In this document: positions 9,252-33,749 of the stretch, in pieces
Numbering within the stretch: position 1 is the stretch's first letter
How the letters are laid out: each line of letters starts with the position of its first letter
From: Litoreibacter janthinus
Lineage (GTDB): Bacteria > Pseudomonadota > Alphaproteobacteria > Rhodobacterales > Rhodobacteraceae
DNA: 64,000 nucleotides
Assembly (NCBI RefSeq): GCF_900111945.1
Contig: NZ_FOYO01000001.1
Span: 286,251 to 350,250 of the forward strand
Direction: 5' to 3'
Made by a program: the position numbers and the translations under genes
Notes under the pieces: model-generated
What the model was told of the DNA's origin: nothing
What the model saw: the letters and a program-made list of their open reading frames with translations, nothing else
The model's database searches: none

Positions 9252-9344
9252 AGATGTTGCGAATTTCGGCCCGATTGTGCATGCCGCGAAATAGATACCG
9301 GCTGTCGGAATCGACCTTGACCGTCCGAGGCGCCTCGGCGCATT

Positions 9345-9545
9345 GTGTGCGGGCATGGTTCCCCGCGACGTGCAAAGCACAGCGGGGAAAAATGGGAATT
9401 CGGTAGGCGTGACCCAATTAGGGGCGCAAATCCGGAGCCGCCCCCGCGACTGTATGCGGAGAGCACCCTGCCAACGAGCCACTGGAGCAATCTGGGAAGG
9501 CGGCAGGATGCATCGACCCGCGAGCCAGGAGACCAGCCATGCGCA
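9345..9545 (+). ncRNA. cobalamin (AdoCbl) riboswitch
   Basis: This is a class-I B12 element leading the cbtB-cobN run. Seen directly are the GGGAAT...GGT core (about 9394-9404), the AATCCGGAGCCGCCCCCGCG-type segment (9429-9448), GCCACTG (9478-9484), GGGAAGGCGG (9494-9503) and the B12 box AGCCAGGAGACC (9523-9534). A closing P1 helix can form between GCATGG (9353-9358) and CCATGC (9537-9542). A second hairpin, CCCGTC/GACGGG (9557-9574), stands just before the cbtB Shine-Dalgarno GGAG (9579-9582), so control at translation initiation is plausible. Established knowledge: B12 binding represses downstream genes. Confidence 0.95.
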
Positions 9546-9589
9546 ATGAAACCCCTCCCGTCGGGTGTGACGGGGCATGGAGATTGAAG

Positions 9590-29990: not shown

Positions 29991-30617
29991 ATGACACGTC
30001 TTCTTCCTGGCATCCTTGCCATGGCCGCCACTGTCGTGGCCTCGAATATTCTCGTCCAGTTCTTGCTGGGCAGTTGGCTCACTTGGGGGGCCTTCACCTA
30101 CCCCATCGCATTCCTTGTCACAGATGTGATGAACCGCATCTATGGGCCTTCCGCCGCACGCCGCGTTGTATTCGCAGGGTTTCTAGTTGGAATCATTTGC
30201 TCACTCATCGGATCGCAGATCATGTTGGAGTACGGGCCCGCGGTGCCACTTCGAATTGCCGTCGCATCCGCCATCGCGTTCCTGTCTGCACAACTTTTAG
30301 ACGTGTCGATTTTTGACCGTCTGCGCGAGGGAACGTGGTGGAAGGCCCCGCTGGCATCGACGCTTGTCGGGTCCGTTGTAGACACAGCGCTGTTCTTCAC
30401 CATAGCATTCTCGGCCTCAATCACCCTATTCGGAGCGGGAAATGATGAAGCGATTTCATGGGCTTGGGAGGGCGTTCCGCTTTTGGGTCAGGGCGCAATT
30501 CTTCCGCTTTGGGTTTCCCTCGCGATTGCGGATTGGGGCGTGAAACTTGCTATCGCCCTGCTCGCGCTGATCCCGTTCCGTATCATTGTTGGAAAAGTTT
30601 CACACAAATTCGCGTAG
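29991..30617 (+). CDS. yhhQ: queuosine precursor transporter, YhhQ/VUT family
   Basis: A 208-aa inner-membrane protein with about six helices. It carries the family region WGAFTYPIAFLVTDVMNRIYG and the conserved helix LRIAVASAIAFLSAQLLDVSIFDRLR. YhhQ proteins import 7-cyano-7-deazaguanine/preQ1-type precursors for queuosine in tRNA. ATG 29991 begins the first hydrophobic segment; the frame extends upstream to 29880 over the previous gene's end. No preQ1 riboswitch is visible in front. Confidence 0.85.
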   Translation: MTRLLPGILAMAATVVASNILVQFLLGSWLTWGAFTYPIAFLVTDVMNRIYGPSAARRVVFAGFLVGIICSLIGSQIMLEYGPAVPLRIAVASAIAFLSAQLLDVSIFDRLREGTWWKAPLASTLVGSVVDTALFFTIAFSASITLFGAGNDEAISWAWEGVPLLGQGAILPLWVSLAIADWGVKLAIALLALIPFRIIVGKVSHKFA

Positions 30618-30629
30618 AAACTTCTTGAG

Positions 30630-30638
30630 TTATCCACA
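30630..30638 (+). promoter_or_regulatory. perfect DnaA-box sequence within an inverted repeat
   Basis: TTATCCACA equals the DnaA box consensus exactly. It overlaps an inverted repeat CCACA-AGA-TGTGG (30633-30645) just before the structured RNA at 30649. A single box in an intergenic region could be a DnaA-regulated promoter site; it does not by itself define an origin. Confidence 0.4.
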
Positions 30639-30686
30639 AGATGTGGCACCTTTCTCTTTAACAGCAACCAGAGAAAGGAGGTGTCC

Positions 30687-30743
30687 ATGTCTAGAGTGAT
30701 ATTGGAGCAAGGTGTCAGGCAAGGTACGGAGGTGCGTGTCTAG
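30687..30743 (+). CDS. 18-codon leader ORF with a maximal Shine-Dalgarno
   Basis: ATG 30687 to TAG 30741-30743 encodes MSRVILEQGVRQGTEVRV. It stands 3 nt after AGAAAGGAGGTG, an unusually long Shine-Dalgarno, and its stop codon lies inside the TAGGGG/CCCCTA hairpin. The peptide has no recognisable family. It may be a regulatory leader peptide, a ribosome-loading device or a real small protein; the base-pairing around it suggests regulation. Confidence 0.45.
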   Translation: MSRVILEQGVRQGTEVRV

Positions 30744-30812
30744 GGGCAGTCCCCTAACCCACACCGAGGTATCGGTCACGGATCAACCTGACCCACCTCC
30801 ATCAGATCTCGG

Positions 30813-30846
30813 AAAGGGCGCCCCGTGCTGTGGGCGCCCTTTCTTC
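30813..30846 (+). terminator. rho-independent terminator of the small RNA
   Basis: AAGGGCGCCC (30814-30823), an 8-nt loop, and GGGCGCCCTT (30832-30841) form a 10-bp G+C-rich stem followed by TTCTTCT. This is the strongest intrinsic terminator in the window after rpsT. It ends the transcript about 245 bp before the helicase start, implying either a free small RNA or attenuation. Confidence 0.85.
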
Positions 30847-31091
30847 TGTCAACGCCCTAGACATGTCGCCTGGATGAGGGTCGCAAGCTGCATTTGCGAT
30901 GATTTCCAGCAGCTCTGGCGACGCGCGCGCGCGAAGTTCGCTGTGCCGTTTGAACGCACCCCCTATACAAGCGCCCCCAAGCAGCGTATTGCCGCCCACT
31001 TGCGGTGCGCGCTCAGGGCACGGGCCGCTTTTGGTGGCCAAATAGGGGTGGCTGCCGTTTCCTTTTTGCCCTGACCAGAAAAGAGTGACCC
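30847..31091 (+). promoter_or_regulatory. helicase upstream region without a clear gene
   Basis: Open frames on both strands here are G+C-driven and show no family resemblance or good start site. The segment ends with AAAAGAGTGACCC in front of the GTG start of the helicase. The promoter and 5' UTR of the helicase are expected here; I cannot mark a convincing -35/-10 pair. Confidence 0.3.
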
Positions 31092-33284
31092 GTGATACAA
31101 ACGATTCAAGACGCGCTGACAGAGCGCGGCTACACCGACCTGACTCCCGTTCAAACCGCAGTAACAGATGCCGAATATGGTGACGCAGACCTTCTGGTCT
31201 CGGCGCAGACCGGCTCCGGCAAAACTGTTGCCTTTGGCCTCGCCATCGCGCCGACATTGCTGGGCGAGGATCAAACATTCGGCCGCGCTGCGGCGCCGCT
31301 GGCGCTGGTGATTGCACCTACGCGCGAATTGGCCCTTCAGGTCAAACGCGAGCTGTCCTGGCTCTATGCAAAAGCAGGTGCCGTTGTGGCGTCTTGCGTG
31401 GGCGGCATGGATATGCGCGACGAGCGTCGTGCCTTGGACCGTGGTGCGCATATCGTCGTGGCCACACCGGGTCGTTTGCGCGACCATATCCAGCGAAGCT
31501 CCATCGACCTGAGCGAAGCCCGTGCCGTGGTGCTGGACGAAGCTGACGAGATGCTGGACCTAGGCTTCCGTGAAGATCTGGAATTCATCCTGTCCGAAGC
31601 GCCTGAAACCCGCCGCACCTTGATGTTCTCGGCCACCGTTCCGGCCTCCATTGCAAAGCTGGCGAAGAGCTACCAGAAGGACGCCATTCGCGTGTCCACA
31701 AAAGCCGAGCATTCACAACACACAGATATCGAATATCGCGCAATGGCTGTCGCCCCGCGTGACGCTGAGAATAGCCTTATCAACGTGCTGCGCTACTACG
31801 AGGCCCCGACGGCCATCGTTTTCTGTAACACCCGCGCCATGGTGAACCGCCTGACCACCCGTTTCTCGAACCGGGGCTTCTCGGTCGTGGCGCTGTCAGG
31901 TGAGCTGAGCCAGAACGAACGCACCCACGCGCTGCAATCCATGCGTGATGGCCGTGCGCGCGTTTGCGTGGCCACTGATGTTGCTGCGCGCGGAATCGAC
32001 CTGCCCAATCTTGAACTGGTGATCCACGCCGAATTGCCAAACAACCACGAAACTCTGCTGCACCGTTCTGGCCGGACAGGCCGTGCAGGCCGCAAAGGCG
32101 TCAGCGCGATGATCGTGCCTGCGAAGATGCGCCGCAAAGCCGAACGCCTGCTGCAAGGTGCGAAGGTGAAAGCCGAATGGGCGGAAGCCCCGTCCGCCGA
32201 CGACGTAAACGCGCGCGATGAAGAACGACTGTTCAATAACCCCGTCTGGACCGACACAGCGACCGATAGCGAAGCAGGCTTGGTCACAAAGCTGATCGAG
32301 CGCTTCTCGCCCGAACAGATCGCAACAGCCTATACACGACTGTTCCGTGAACGGCAGTCGGCCCCAGAAGATCTGGCTCCATCCGGCTCTGATGCGCCGA
32401 AAGAGCGCCCAGCCTTTGGCGAAAGCGTTTGGTTCTCGGTCTCTATCGGTCGCAAAGACAACGCAGAACCACGCTGGTTGCTGCCTGCATTGTGCCGCGC
32501 TGGCGATCTGACCAAGGACGACATTGGCGCCATCCGCATCCAGCAGAACGCAAGCTTTGTTGAAATCCTGAAAGCCAGTGAAGACCGGTTTCTGAAATCT
32601 CTCGGCGATGGGATGAAACTTGAAGACGGTGCAATTGTCACCCGCCTCGACAAAGCGCCTGACTTCACGTCCATGCCACGTCCGCAAGGTGGCAAAAAAC
32701 CTTTCGACAAGAAGCCTTACGACAAAAAACCATACGAGAAGAAACCTTATCGCGACGACTACGATACGCCACCACGCCCTGCCGCGACAGAGCAGCCTAA
32801 ATCAGGGAAAAGCATCAGCGATGCGCGCCCAGAAGGTGCCGTGACGAGCCATAAGCCGCGCCCAGCCGGTGACAAAAAACCGTATGAGAAAAAACCCTAC
32901 GAAAAGAAGGGCGACAAGAAGCCTTACGAGAAGAAACCGCATGGGGACAAAGCCCCCTATGAGAAACGTGGCGAAAAGCCTGCTTTTGACAAGAAGCCTG
33001 GTGGCAAAAAGCCGTTCCGCAAGGCCGATGGAGAAAAGCCTTTCCGCAAGGCCGATGGCGAAAAACCGTTCCGCAAGGCCGACGGGGACAAGCCACGTTT
33101 CGACAAGAAACCGGGCGGCAAGAAGCCCTTCAACAAGGCTGATGGCGGCAAACCCGCGGGCAAGCGCCCATCTGCAAGCGCGAATGACACGTCCAAGCGC
33201 TTCACCCCTCCGGGTGGCAAGGTAAAGCCACGCGTCAGCAAGGGCGCAGGTGCCACACCAAAACGGGGCAAGGGAAAACCTTAA
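31092..33284 (+). CDS. DEAD-box RNA helicase with Lys/Pro-rich repeat tail
   Basis: A 730-aa helicase. The core carries the Q motif (LTPVQ), Walker A AQTGSGKT (38-45), PTRELA, VATPGRLRDH, VLDEADEMLDLGF (about 150-162), FSAT, and domain 2 with ATDVAARGIDLP and HRSGRTGRAG. A DbpA/CsdA-type RNA-binding domain lies around 440-525. From about residue 528 the protein is a disordered basic tail of KKPYEKKPY and KADGEKPFR repeats. It acts on structured RNA in ribosome assembly, decay or cold adaptation. GTG 31092 is preceded by a GAG-type site; the RNA element upstream may regulate it. Confidence 0.9.
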   Translation: MIQTIQDALTERGYTDLTPVQTAVTDAEYGDADLLVSAQTGSGKTVAFGLAIAPTLLGEDQTFGRAAAPLALVIAPTRELALQVKRELSWLYAKAGAVVASCVGGMDMRDERRALDRGAHIVVATPGRLRDHIQRSSIDLSEARAVVLDEADEMLDLGFREDLEFILSEAPETRRTLMFSATVPASIAKLAKSYQKDAIRVSTKAEHSQHTDIEYRAMAVAPRDAENSLINVLRYYEAPTAIVFCNTRAMVNRLTTRFSNRGFSVVALSGELSQNERTHALQSMRDGRARVCVATDVAARGIDLPNLELVIHAELPNNHETLLHRSGRTGRAGRKGVSAMIVPAKMRRKAERLLQGAKVKAEWAEAPSADDVNARDEERLFNNPVWTDTATDSEAGLVTKLIERFSPEQIATAYTRLFRERQSAPEDLAPSGSDAPKERPAFGESVWFSVSIGRKDNAEPRWLLPALCRAGDLTKDDIGAIRIQQNASFVEILKASEDRFLKSLGDGMKLEDGAIVTRLDKAPDFTSMPRPQGGKKPFDKKPYDKKPYEKKPYRDDYDTPPRPAATEQPKSGKSISDARPEGAVTSHKPRPAGDKKPYEKKPYEKKGDKKPYEKKPHGDKAPYEKRGEKPAFDKKPGGKKPFRKADGEKPFRKADGEKPFRKADGDKPRFDKKPGGKKPFNKADGGKPAGKRPSASANDTSKRFTPPGGKVKPRVSKGAGATPKRGKGKP
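32691..33160 (+). repeat. coding low-complexity repeats in the helicase tail
   Basis: The DNA encodes repeated Lys-Pro-Tyr/Phe units. The clearest is a 27-bp repeat, three copies at 33012-33092, each encoding a variant of PFRKADGEK. Copies differ mainly at third codon positions, which indicates protein-level selection or old duplication rather than a recent slip. Confidence 0.8.
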
Positions 33285-33326
33285 TCCGGCATATTCACCG
33301 AAAGGATCATGGGGTATCAAAGCCCC

Positions 33327-33749
33327 ATGATCCGCGTGAATGACACCATCACCATTGAAGACTGGGAACTGACGGAAAGCTTCACCCGCGCCCAAGGGCC
33401 AGGCGGGCAAAACGTCAACAAAGTCTCCACCGCTGTTGAACTGCGGTTCGAAGCGGCGCGGTCCCCAAACCTGACCGCCCCGGTAAAAGCCCGTCTAAAA
33501 CGCCTTGCAGGACGGCGCTGGACAACCGAAGGCGCGCTGATCGTTTTTGTGCAAGACACGCGTTCGCAAGCGCGCAATCGTGAGATCGCGGAGGTTCGTT
33601 TACGTGAATTGATCCTCAAAGCGCTAGAAACCCCAAAGCGCCGGATCAAGACGCGCCCGACCCTTGGATCGCAGCGGCGCAGGATCGCCACCAAGAAGCA
33701 GCGTGGCGAGGTTAAATCGCTGCGTGGAAAGGTCACTGATGATGACTGA
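33327..33749 (+). CDS. arfB: ribosome rescue hydrolase ArfB (YaeJ/ICT1 type)
   Basis: A 140-aa protein with the GGQ peptidyl-hydrolase motif in GPGGQNVNK (GGQ at 26-28) and a Lys/Arg-rich C-terminal tail (RRIKTRPTLGSQRRRIATKK) that inserts in the mRNA channel. It releases peptides on non-stop ribosomes without tmRNA. It lacks the long N-terminal domains of RF1 and RF2. ATG 33327 is preferred; an in-frame ATG at 33309 adds six residues. The 3' end overlaps the next gene by 11 bp. Confidence 0.92.
   Translation: MIRVNDTITIEDWELTESFTRAQGPGGQNVNKVSTAVELRFEAARSPNLTAPVKARLKRLAGRRWTTEGALIVFVQDTRSQARNREIAEVRLRELILKALETPKRRIKTRPTLGSQRRRIATKKQRGEVKSLRGKVTDDD

Follow-up and report, generated by a model that had tools for sequence, protein, structure and literature searches.

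What is encoded in the stretch of Litoreibacter janthinus DNA between the gene of a queuosine precursor transporter (yhhQ/Vut_1, 29991..30617, plus strand; Pfam PF02592, NCBIfam TIGR00697) and that of a DEAD-box helicase with a DbpA RNA-binding domain (31092..33284, plus strand; Pfam DEAD, Helicase_C and DbpA), a small RNA in its own right or a leader of the gene behind it? All positions refer to the window, which is the whole stretch of 64,000 nucleotides that was analysed. A check of the window sequence found every string named in a first-pass annotation at its position. These are an extended Shine-Dalgarno (SD) sequence AGAAAGGAGGTG (30672-30683) with 12 nt of exact complement to the 16S tail, a perfect 9-bp inverted repeat (30649-30657/30670-30678), a second GGAGGTG (30728-30734), one CACCTCC (30794-30800) and the tetraloop hairpins GGGGCAGTCCCC (30743-30754) and CCGAGGTATCGG (30764-30775), all on the plus strand. 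The stretch folded better than 200 of 200 dinucleotide shuffles (z -4.05).

As judged from comparison with relatives, about 30660-30846 is a separate small RNA gene of the Rhodobacteraceae, lying between two other genes, whose parts appear to be a promoter block, an exceptionally strong SD, an 18-codon ORF, a hairpin at the stop codon and a terminator. Relatives keep the extended SD, the micro-ORF, the stop-codon hairpin, the terminator and the CACCTCC element, the last mostly as CATCTCC outside the genus of the window. Conservation and predicted fold both bear out the earlier description, in which a structured small RNA hides an SD complementary to 16S rRNA and also holds a micro-ORF and a terminator. 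That description had also called the RNA undescribed and had proposed a search against Rfam as a check. At the curated thresholds no Rfam match in the window fell on the element, the sole match being a cobalamin riboswitch at 9339-9555 (plus strand; 117.2 bits, far above its cut-off). The word undescribed is correct in so far as the element stays below the Rfam threshold, but its 5′ block is that of CC2171 (RF01867).

Distribution of the element

BLASTN with positions 30640-30860 gave matches in 28 of 61 genomes, among them all 21 genomes of the genus (the window's own genome is included in both counts). A covariance model, R1, was made from 24 of the 27 loci of the first search, with the weak matches L002, L003, L029, L031 and L032 omitted from the first alignment and L033 being the window again. 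It matched 355 of 394 family genomes and 354 of 393 genera, with 39 of the 394 genomes giving no match; "family" in this and all other counts is taken as Rhodobacteraceae in the wide sense, from the genus names matched. In a pattern scan of named genomes at least 119 stretches were found, and the matches listed include 80 named loci and the genera Paracoccus, Gemmobacter, Tabrizicola, Rhodovulum, Rhodobacter and Cereibacter. Neither the plasmid nor the phage collection contained anything similar to 30660-30850 at E 1e-5.

The 212 family loci analysed below include some genomes twice (e.g. L034/L020, L040/L024 and L057/L027) and represent 196 distinct stretches. Mutual information was computed for 204 of the 212 loci and then for 188 distinct ones, ensemble folding and 16S-pairing energies for 203 of the 212. 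The structure alignment holds 63 representatives of the 188, of which 62 were used for the folding of nascent fragments.

Promoter block and start of the transcript

A putative -35 element TTGAGT (30625..30630, plus strand; family consensus TTGACA) occurs as TTGA with a following C, G or T in 181 of the 211 family loci whose upstream DNA reaches far enough. These loci were picked by the TTGA motif, so that only the remaining positions count as evidence, and in them the next positions are C in 92% and A in 79%. The putative -10 element CACCTT (30647..30652, plus strand), recognised by family conservation, follows the consensus TGN-CANNNT of an extended -10 with a 16-nt spacer, and the T, G, C, A and T of TGNCANNNT are each found in 98% of the 181 loci. 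The whole block, TTGACA-N16-CANNNT with the second element preceded by TGN, stands 46-50 nt upstream of the SD in 176 of 181 loci. A scan for E. coli-type promoters found none at this block. The transcript would start at about 30659-30661.

This placement bears on the 9-bp hairpin, which the first-pass annotation had taken as the mask of the SD. Among the 21 congeners nine of nine pairs are present in one and at least seven in six, and the 5′ arm overlaps the conserved -10 element, so that the arm probably precedes the first base of the transcript. A masking role of this unconserved hairpin inside the promoter block was therefore rejected.

A conserved micro-ORF behind an extended Shine-Dalgarno sequence

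The SD is followed by a micro-ORF of 18 codons, MSRVILEQGVRQGTEVRV, with the stop TAG (30687..30743, plus strand). A length of 18 codons is found in 212 of 218 family loci, and three of the other six have 17, 20 and 22 codons. The stops of the 212 ORFs are TGA (94), TAG (70) and TAA (48). When the frames are read regardless of their length, 208 of 212 readable loci have a stop at codon 19 and none has TGG there, compared with about 31 TGG expected from the column frequencies if the columns were independent, counts that are inflated by the kinship of the sequences. Since codon 19 varies among the stops and is never TGG, it bears the mark of a stop codon and not of a nucleotide motif, and judging by this pattern the micro-ORF is evidently translated.

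The 16S tail used for pairing, GGCTGGATCACCTCCTTTCT, was taken from two Rhodobacterales records and not from the window's genome. The longest exact complement to it measures 17-18 nt in 92 and 11-13 nt in 120 of the 212 family loci, about 10 bases of which were fixed by the way in which the loci were picked. GAAAGGAGGTG is present in a single copy in the 3.75-Mb genome. The predicted SD/16S duplex of the window has -23.7 kcal/mol versus -20.2 for the best and -11.1 for the median of 54 window ORFs of at least 200 residues, a comparison set that includes spurious ORFs. Pairing with the 16S tail is predicted to outweigh the opening of the SD in 203 of 203 family loci (-23.7 versus +9.2 kcal/mol in the window), as calculated from energies that exclude kinetics and other ribosomal contacts.

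Predicted fold and closure of the Shine-Dalgarno sequence

Across the 63 representatives 94.4% of the cells of the whole proposed structure are paired, and 19 pairs show changes on both sides compared with 9.8 in shuffles and 10-15 in slid controls. The start codon lies in a hairpin UCCA-UGUC / GAUA-U-UGGA (30684..30706, plus strand) with 98.2% of cells paired and changes on both sides in one of eight pairs. Two helices have their 5′ arms inside the ORF. Helix H3 joins GUCAG (30714..30718, plus strand) to CUGAC (30788..30792, plus strand), with 92.7% of cells paired and two of five pairs changed on both sides; helix H2 joins GGUAC (30723..30727, plus strand) to 30769-30773 in the minimum-energy fold of the window sequence, and the family helix at this place has six of seven pairs changed on both sides, with 82.3% of cells paired and 18% broken. 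The stop codon opens a hairpin UAGGGG-CAGU-CCCCUA (30741..30756, plus strand), for which 97.4% of cells are paired in the three pairs counted and two of these three are changed on both sides, the outer pair ranking third of all column pairs by corrected mutual information.

The terminator claimed earlier is present (30813..30842, plus strand; 97.5% of cells paired, changes on both sides in eight of 11 pairs), but its stem has 11 bp (30813-30823/30832-30842) instead of 10, and the tail, which runs to about 30847, is T-rich but interrupted by C. A pattern scan for terminators gives just a 5-bp register at 30825-30837. Covariation thus appears to support the terminator, the stop hairpin, the ORF helix H2 and, weakly, H3. 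Compensatory changes, whose absence in relatives had been named earlier as a refutation, are present in the terminator, the stop hairpin and the ORF helix; the 9-bp hairpin is not conserved.

The SD is masked in the predicted fold, with CACCUCC (30794-30800, plus strand) as the partner in place of the upstream arm. This element mimics the 3′ tail of 16S rRNA and is predicted to pair with GGAGGUG at 30677-30683; the helix has 97.7% of cells paired in the 63 representatives. As the SD is invariant, double changes are impossible and this lock lies beyond the reach of covariation. In ensemble folding the GGAGG of the SD pairs with the stretch of 25 nt that precedes CTCG and includes CACCUCC; this pairing has a mean probability of 0.966 (n = 203) and a probability above 0.5 in 199 loci. 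Of 62 full-length relatives, 58 have the SD paired with P > 0.9, as against 16.3% of 496 shuffles. The mean P of the shuffles is 0.71, and this frequent masking of such an SD by chance counts against the lock. Fragments ending 12 nt past the stop reach P > 0.9 in none of 62 (mean P 0.44, below 0.5 in 33), those ending 40 nt past it in one of 62 (below 0.5 in 40). From the comparison of fragments and full-length RNAs the SD is predicted to be partly or mostly open until the polymerase passes about 30800, and then shut. That the nascent SD is predicted to be not fully free counts against the opening. The second GGAGGTG, earlier proposed as an alternative partner, does exist in the window, but it is a feature of the genus (17 of 21 congeners, one of 191 other family loci) and was set aside as a pairing arm.

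Relationship to CC2171

Against the CC2171 model the window scores 20.2 bits at a gathering cut-off of 75, and 20 of 20 family loci match the model end to end with 26.4-45.8 bits, all below this cut-off. In the alignment of L042 the 5′ block is near-identical and the terminator matches, while most of the model's middle is unaligned and its internal helices are not matched. Since the match is carried by the 5′ block and the terminator, the element appears to be related to CC2171 and is not filed as a member at the Rfam threshold. Both share the block CAACAAUYGAAAGGAGGUGAUCCAGUGUC, a 3′ terminator and a similar length, and in the Rfam consensus the block likewise starts a short frame, GUG UCU CAU. 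The CC2171 form of the block, with GAAAGGAGGUGAUCC and GUGUC, is present in the family (L042 alignment), and the window has the shorter form GAAAGGAGGTGTCCATGTC. The family element differs in that it has the 18-codon ORF with its stop hairpin and a 3′ SD lock instead, and in its place mostly beside yhhQ and often arfB. CC2171 was reportedly first described as a Caulobacter sRNA, by Landt in 2008. Other candidates for a known relative were set aside: Rfam STnc320 gave a weak match that covers the terminator only, on both strands; RcsR1/rnTrpL of S. meliloti was dropped, RcsR1 sharing its start with trpL; and the accessible text on GspR gave no link to CC2171.

In the wider class, R1 gave weak matches in other alphaproteobacterial families, with 37 of 289 genomes matched at E ≤ 0.1, four of these from the window's family. 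The same opening (A-rich start, AAAGGAGGTG or near, Met/Val/Leu-Ser) is found in 23 of 26 class-level loci, and the short ORFs behind it differ in length, with 22-26 codons being common. A pattern of this opening with one mismatch allowed occurs in 90 of 385 class genomes, its reversed control in one. Of 20 class-level loci with the opening, 18 score 27-76 bits against CC2171, one of these above the cut-off, and L225 and L243 give no match. At E ≤ 0.01 the CC2171 model itself matched 68 of 289 class genomes (nine above cut-off) and two of 14 controls (Caulobacter vibrioides and Deinobacterium chartae, one of the two above cut-off), and gave no match in the window's own genome. Folding of class-level relatives (50 of 56 loci parsed, 44 distinct) paired the SD with P > 0.5 in 35 of 44, with changing partners, so that the lock is not class-wide. 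The class-level relatives L225-L280 group by their ORF start (MSHCH, MSSE/MSSD or VSTHQ), the lengths being alike inside each group; several of them have a GGAGCARCCUCC-like hairpin that is read in different frames.

A small RNA that might report ribosome supply

The reading that we prefer, at even odds (probability about 0.5), is that of a CC2171 relative whose fate depends on ribosome loading before the RNA locks. According to the predicted folding, the SD would be at least partly open during synthesis of the RNA, and once CACCUCC is transcribed the RNA would fold back, the 16S-tail mimic would pair with the SD and the RNA would be shut. A 30S subunit bound early would keep SD and CACCUCC apart, the ORF would be translated and H2, H3 and the stop hairpin would be melted; with no 30S bound the RNA would lock. 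As an early 30S would keep the RNA open and its absence would let it lock, the RNA would report ribosome supply, ribosome occupancy would set its fate, and the cell might respond via arfB where this gene stands behind the terminator, or via targets in trans. Ribosome availability, one of the inputs suggested in the first-pass annotation, gains support as a possibility. The ORF, helices, promoter block and terminator in this reading are drawn from comparison, the lock and its opening from predicted folding. Independence from the neighbours is suggested by the flanks of the 26 class-level loci, which gave no match to arfB, yhhQ or the helicase; arfB close behind the terminator in many genomes suggests a role in cis and counts against a stand-alone RNA. 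The reading is weakened further by the negative scan for E. coli-type promoters, by the broken cells of H2 and by the changing partners of the SD at class level.

A wider version of this reading is a good deal more tentative. It takes the element as part of an alphaproteobacterial class of small mRNAs, with CC2171 as one named branch, in which an antisense copy of the single-stranded 16S tail would act as a very strong ribosome trap before a short ORF. The RNA of the Rhodobacteraceae would also hold a 16S-tail mimic in competition with the 30S for the SD, so that free 30S subunits would be sensed co-transcriptionally, often beside arfB.

Neighbouring genes and a possible control of arfB

The upstream neighbour yhhQ is found in 197 of 212 family loci and is absent in 11 with enough DNA. 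Downstream, the window carries arfB for a ribosome-rescue peptidyl-tRNA hydrolase (33309..33749, plus strand; NCBIfam PRK09256 ArfB, 175.4 bits at a cut-off of 100), with the helicase gene standing between the element and arfB. The helicase, which stands between the RNA and arfB in only part of the genus, is of the DbpA type and has a long repetitive C-terminal tail with KKPYEKK and GEKPFRKAD repeats. In the family arfB lies downstream in 136 of 212 loci, at most 400 nt from the ORF start in 128; 69 loci show no arfB in the 0.9-7.9 kb surveyed downstream, and seven are too short to tell. The window is counted among the 69 because its arfB lies beyond the stretch surveyed, and 20 of the 69 are rows of its genus, in which arfB is mostly 2-4 kb off behind other genes. 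The genus has arfB in 20 of 21 genomes; by our own reading it lies downstream on the same contig and strand in 16 of 21, directly behind the terminator in two of these and 1.8-17 kb away in 14. In the congeners L014 and L015 arfB starts about 30 nt behind the terminator, and most other congeners have different genes between; this variety makes the gap look like a recurrent insertion site in the genus. The order yhhQ-RNA-arfB would be ancestral in the family, with arfB as the probable ancestral downstream neighbour, and the RNA seems to persist where arfB is not adjacent. A minus-strand ORF (30802-31317) faces the terminator, with partial similarity in six genus loci counting the window and no Pfam match; it is perhaps the remnant of a convergent gene.

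This neighbourhood raises the possibility, the main rival of the preferred reading and about half as probable, that the element is a ribosome-controlled transcription attenuator of arfB, in which translation of the leader ORF would decide on read-through and ArfB would be made when translation fails. Besides the frequent position of arfB behind the element, this is favoured by a possible arfB start at most 60 nt from the terminator in 99 of 130 loci measured, which leaves little room for a separate promoter, and by the 3′ arm of the stop hairpin (CCCC or CCCCUU), which by eye could pair with the terminator foot (AAGGG) in many loci. The translated upstream ORF of an attenuator is indicated here by comparison only, in its fixed frame, its length and a stop kept as a codon. 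Against this stand the loci without arfB in the family and in the class-level flanks, an association that is therefore not constant, and a locked fold that does not overlap the terminator. An antiterminator is not demonstrated: among the 70 strongest pairs no canonical run of covarying pairs joins an upstream arm to the terminator, a search that conserved arms would escape, and several of these pairs involve a mostly gapped column at the terminator foot, which we read as a lineage signal.

Known systems offer partial likenesses. Ribosome-mediated attenuator leaders such as uORFC-8-2 before cysS in Rhodobacterales (PMC8632094) share the short ORF, the internal helices, the intrinsic terminator and a gene often directly behind; they differ in that here neither a run of codons for a single amino acid was noticed nor a signal of an antiterminator, and in that genomes with arfB elsewhere still keep the RNA. 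The control of ArfA/BrfA by trans-translation likewise associates a ribosome-rescue gene with a hairpin or terminator, but there this lies inside the gene and gives a truncated mRNA (PMC8012679), whereas here a separate RNA with a complete ORF precedes arfB. The dual-function sRNA rnTrpL of Sinorhizobium is also a small terminated RNA with a translated leader ORF, but it is leaderless and starts with AUG (PMC7143759, PMC10117765), whereas an extended SD precedes the ORF here. Among the open-access papers listed by the literature searches there was neither a study of CC2171 function nor a report of an arfB leader, although the supplement of PMC8632094 may already list the element.

Action in trans, the peptide and the helicase

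The CACCUCC element might also act away from its own RNA. A trans-acting sRNA in which the CCACCUCC element blocks the SDs of other mRNAs, and in which a ribosome on its own SD frees the element, seems improbable to us. The element is conserved in sequence, Rfam classes CC2171 as an sRNA, and AACAAC or similar stands upstream of the SD in many class-level relatives, a type of stretch that would suit Hfq binding; but the element is fully explained by pairing with its own SD, and it would fit very many SDs without specificity.

A little less probable still is a small mRNA whose product is the 18-residue peptide, with folding only tuning the dose. Its length and frame are fixed, and serine is encoded at codon 2 by 211 of 212 loci, which between them use each of the four TCN codons. 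Codons 3, 6 and 7 are, by contrast, held at the nucleotide level (AGA in 208, TTG in 204 and GAG in 211 of 212 loci), as would be expected from the start-codon hairpin and its loop, to which the frozen early codons are due in part, and the C-terminal half of the peptide is much more variable. Codon 5 is ATA in 158 of 212 loci; AGA and ATA are rare in seven window ORFs (1.8 per 1000 each, 2280 codons).

The attenuator of the DEAD-box helicase gene proposed in the first-pass annotation is hardly credible, since the helicase, although it is in the window the next long same-strand ORF with a family match, stands downstream in seven of the 27 loci that the first search gave, with about 1.5 kb examined on either side; all seven are within the window's genus and one is recognised by its first 22 residues only. 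In the same orientation it follows in none of the 80 named family loci among the matches listed, within the flanking DNA examined, and the element is far more widespread than the arrangement.

Significance

The analysis gives relatives of CC2171 an anatomy that can be tested: the ORF is conserved, the SD is complementary to 16S rRNA, and in one family the RNA would make its own lock. The wide presence of the RNA in Rhodobacteraceae and its frequent place before arfB suggest that it may have a role in translation stress. Should the RNA indeed respond to free 30S subunits, the cell would have in it a direct RNA gauge of its supply of ribosomes.
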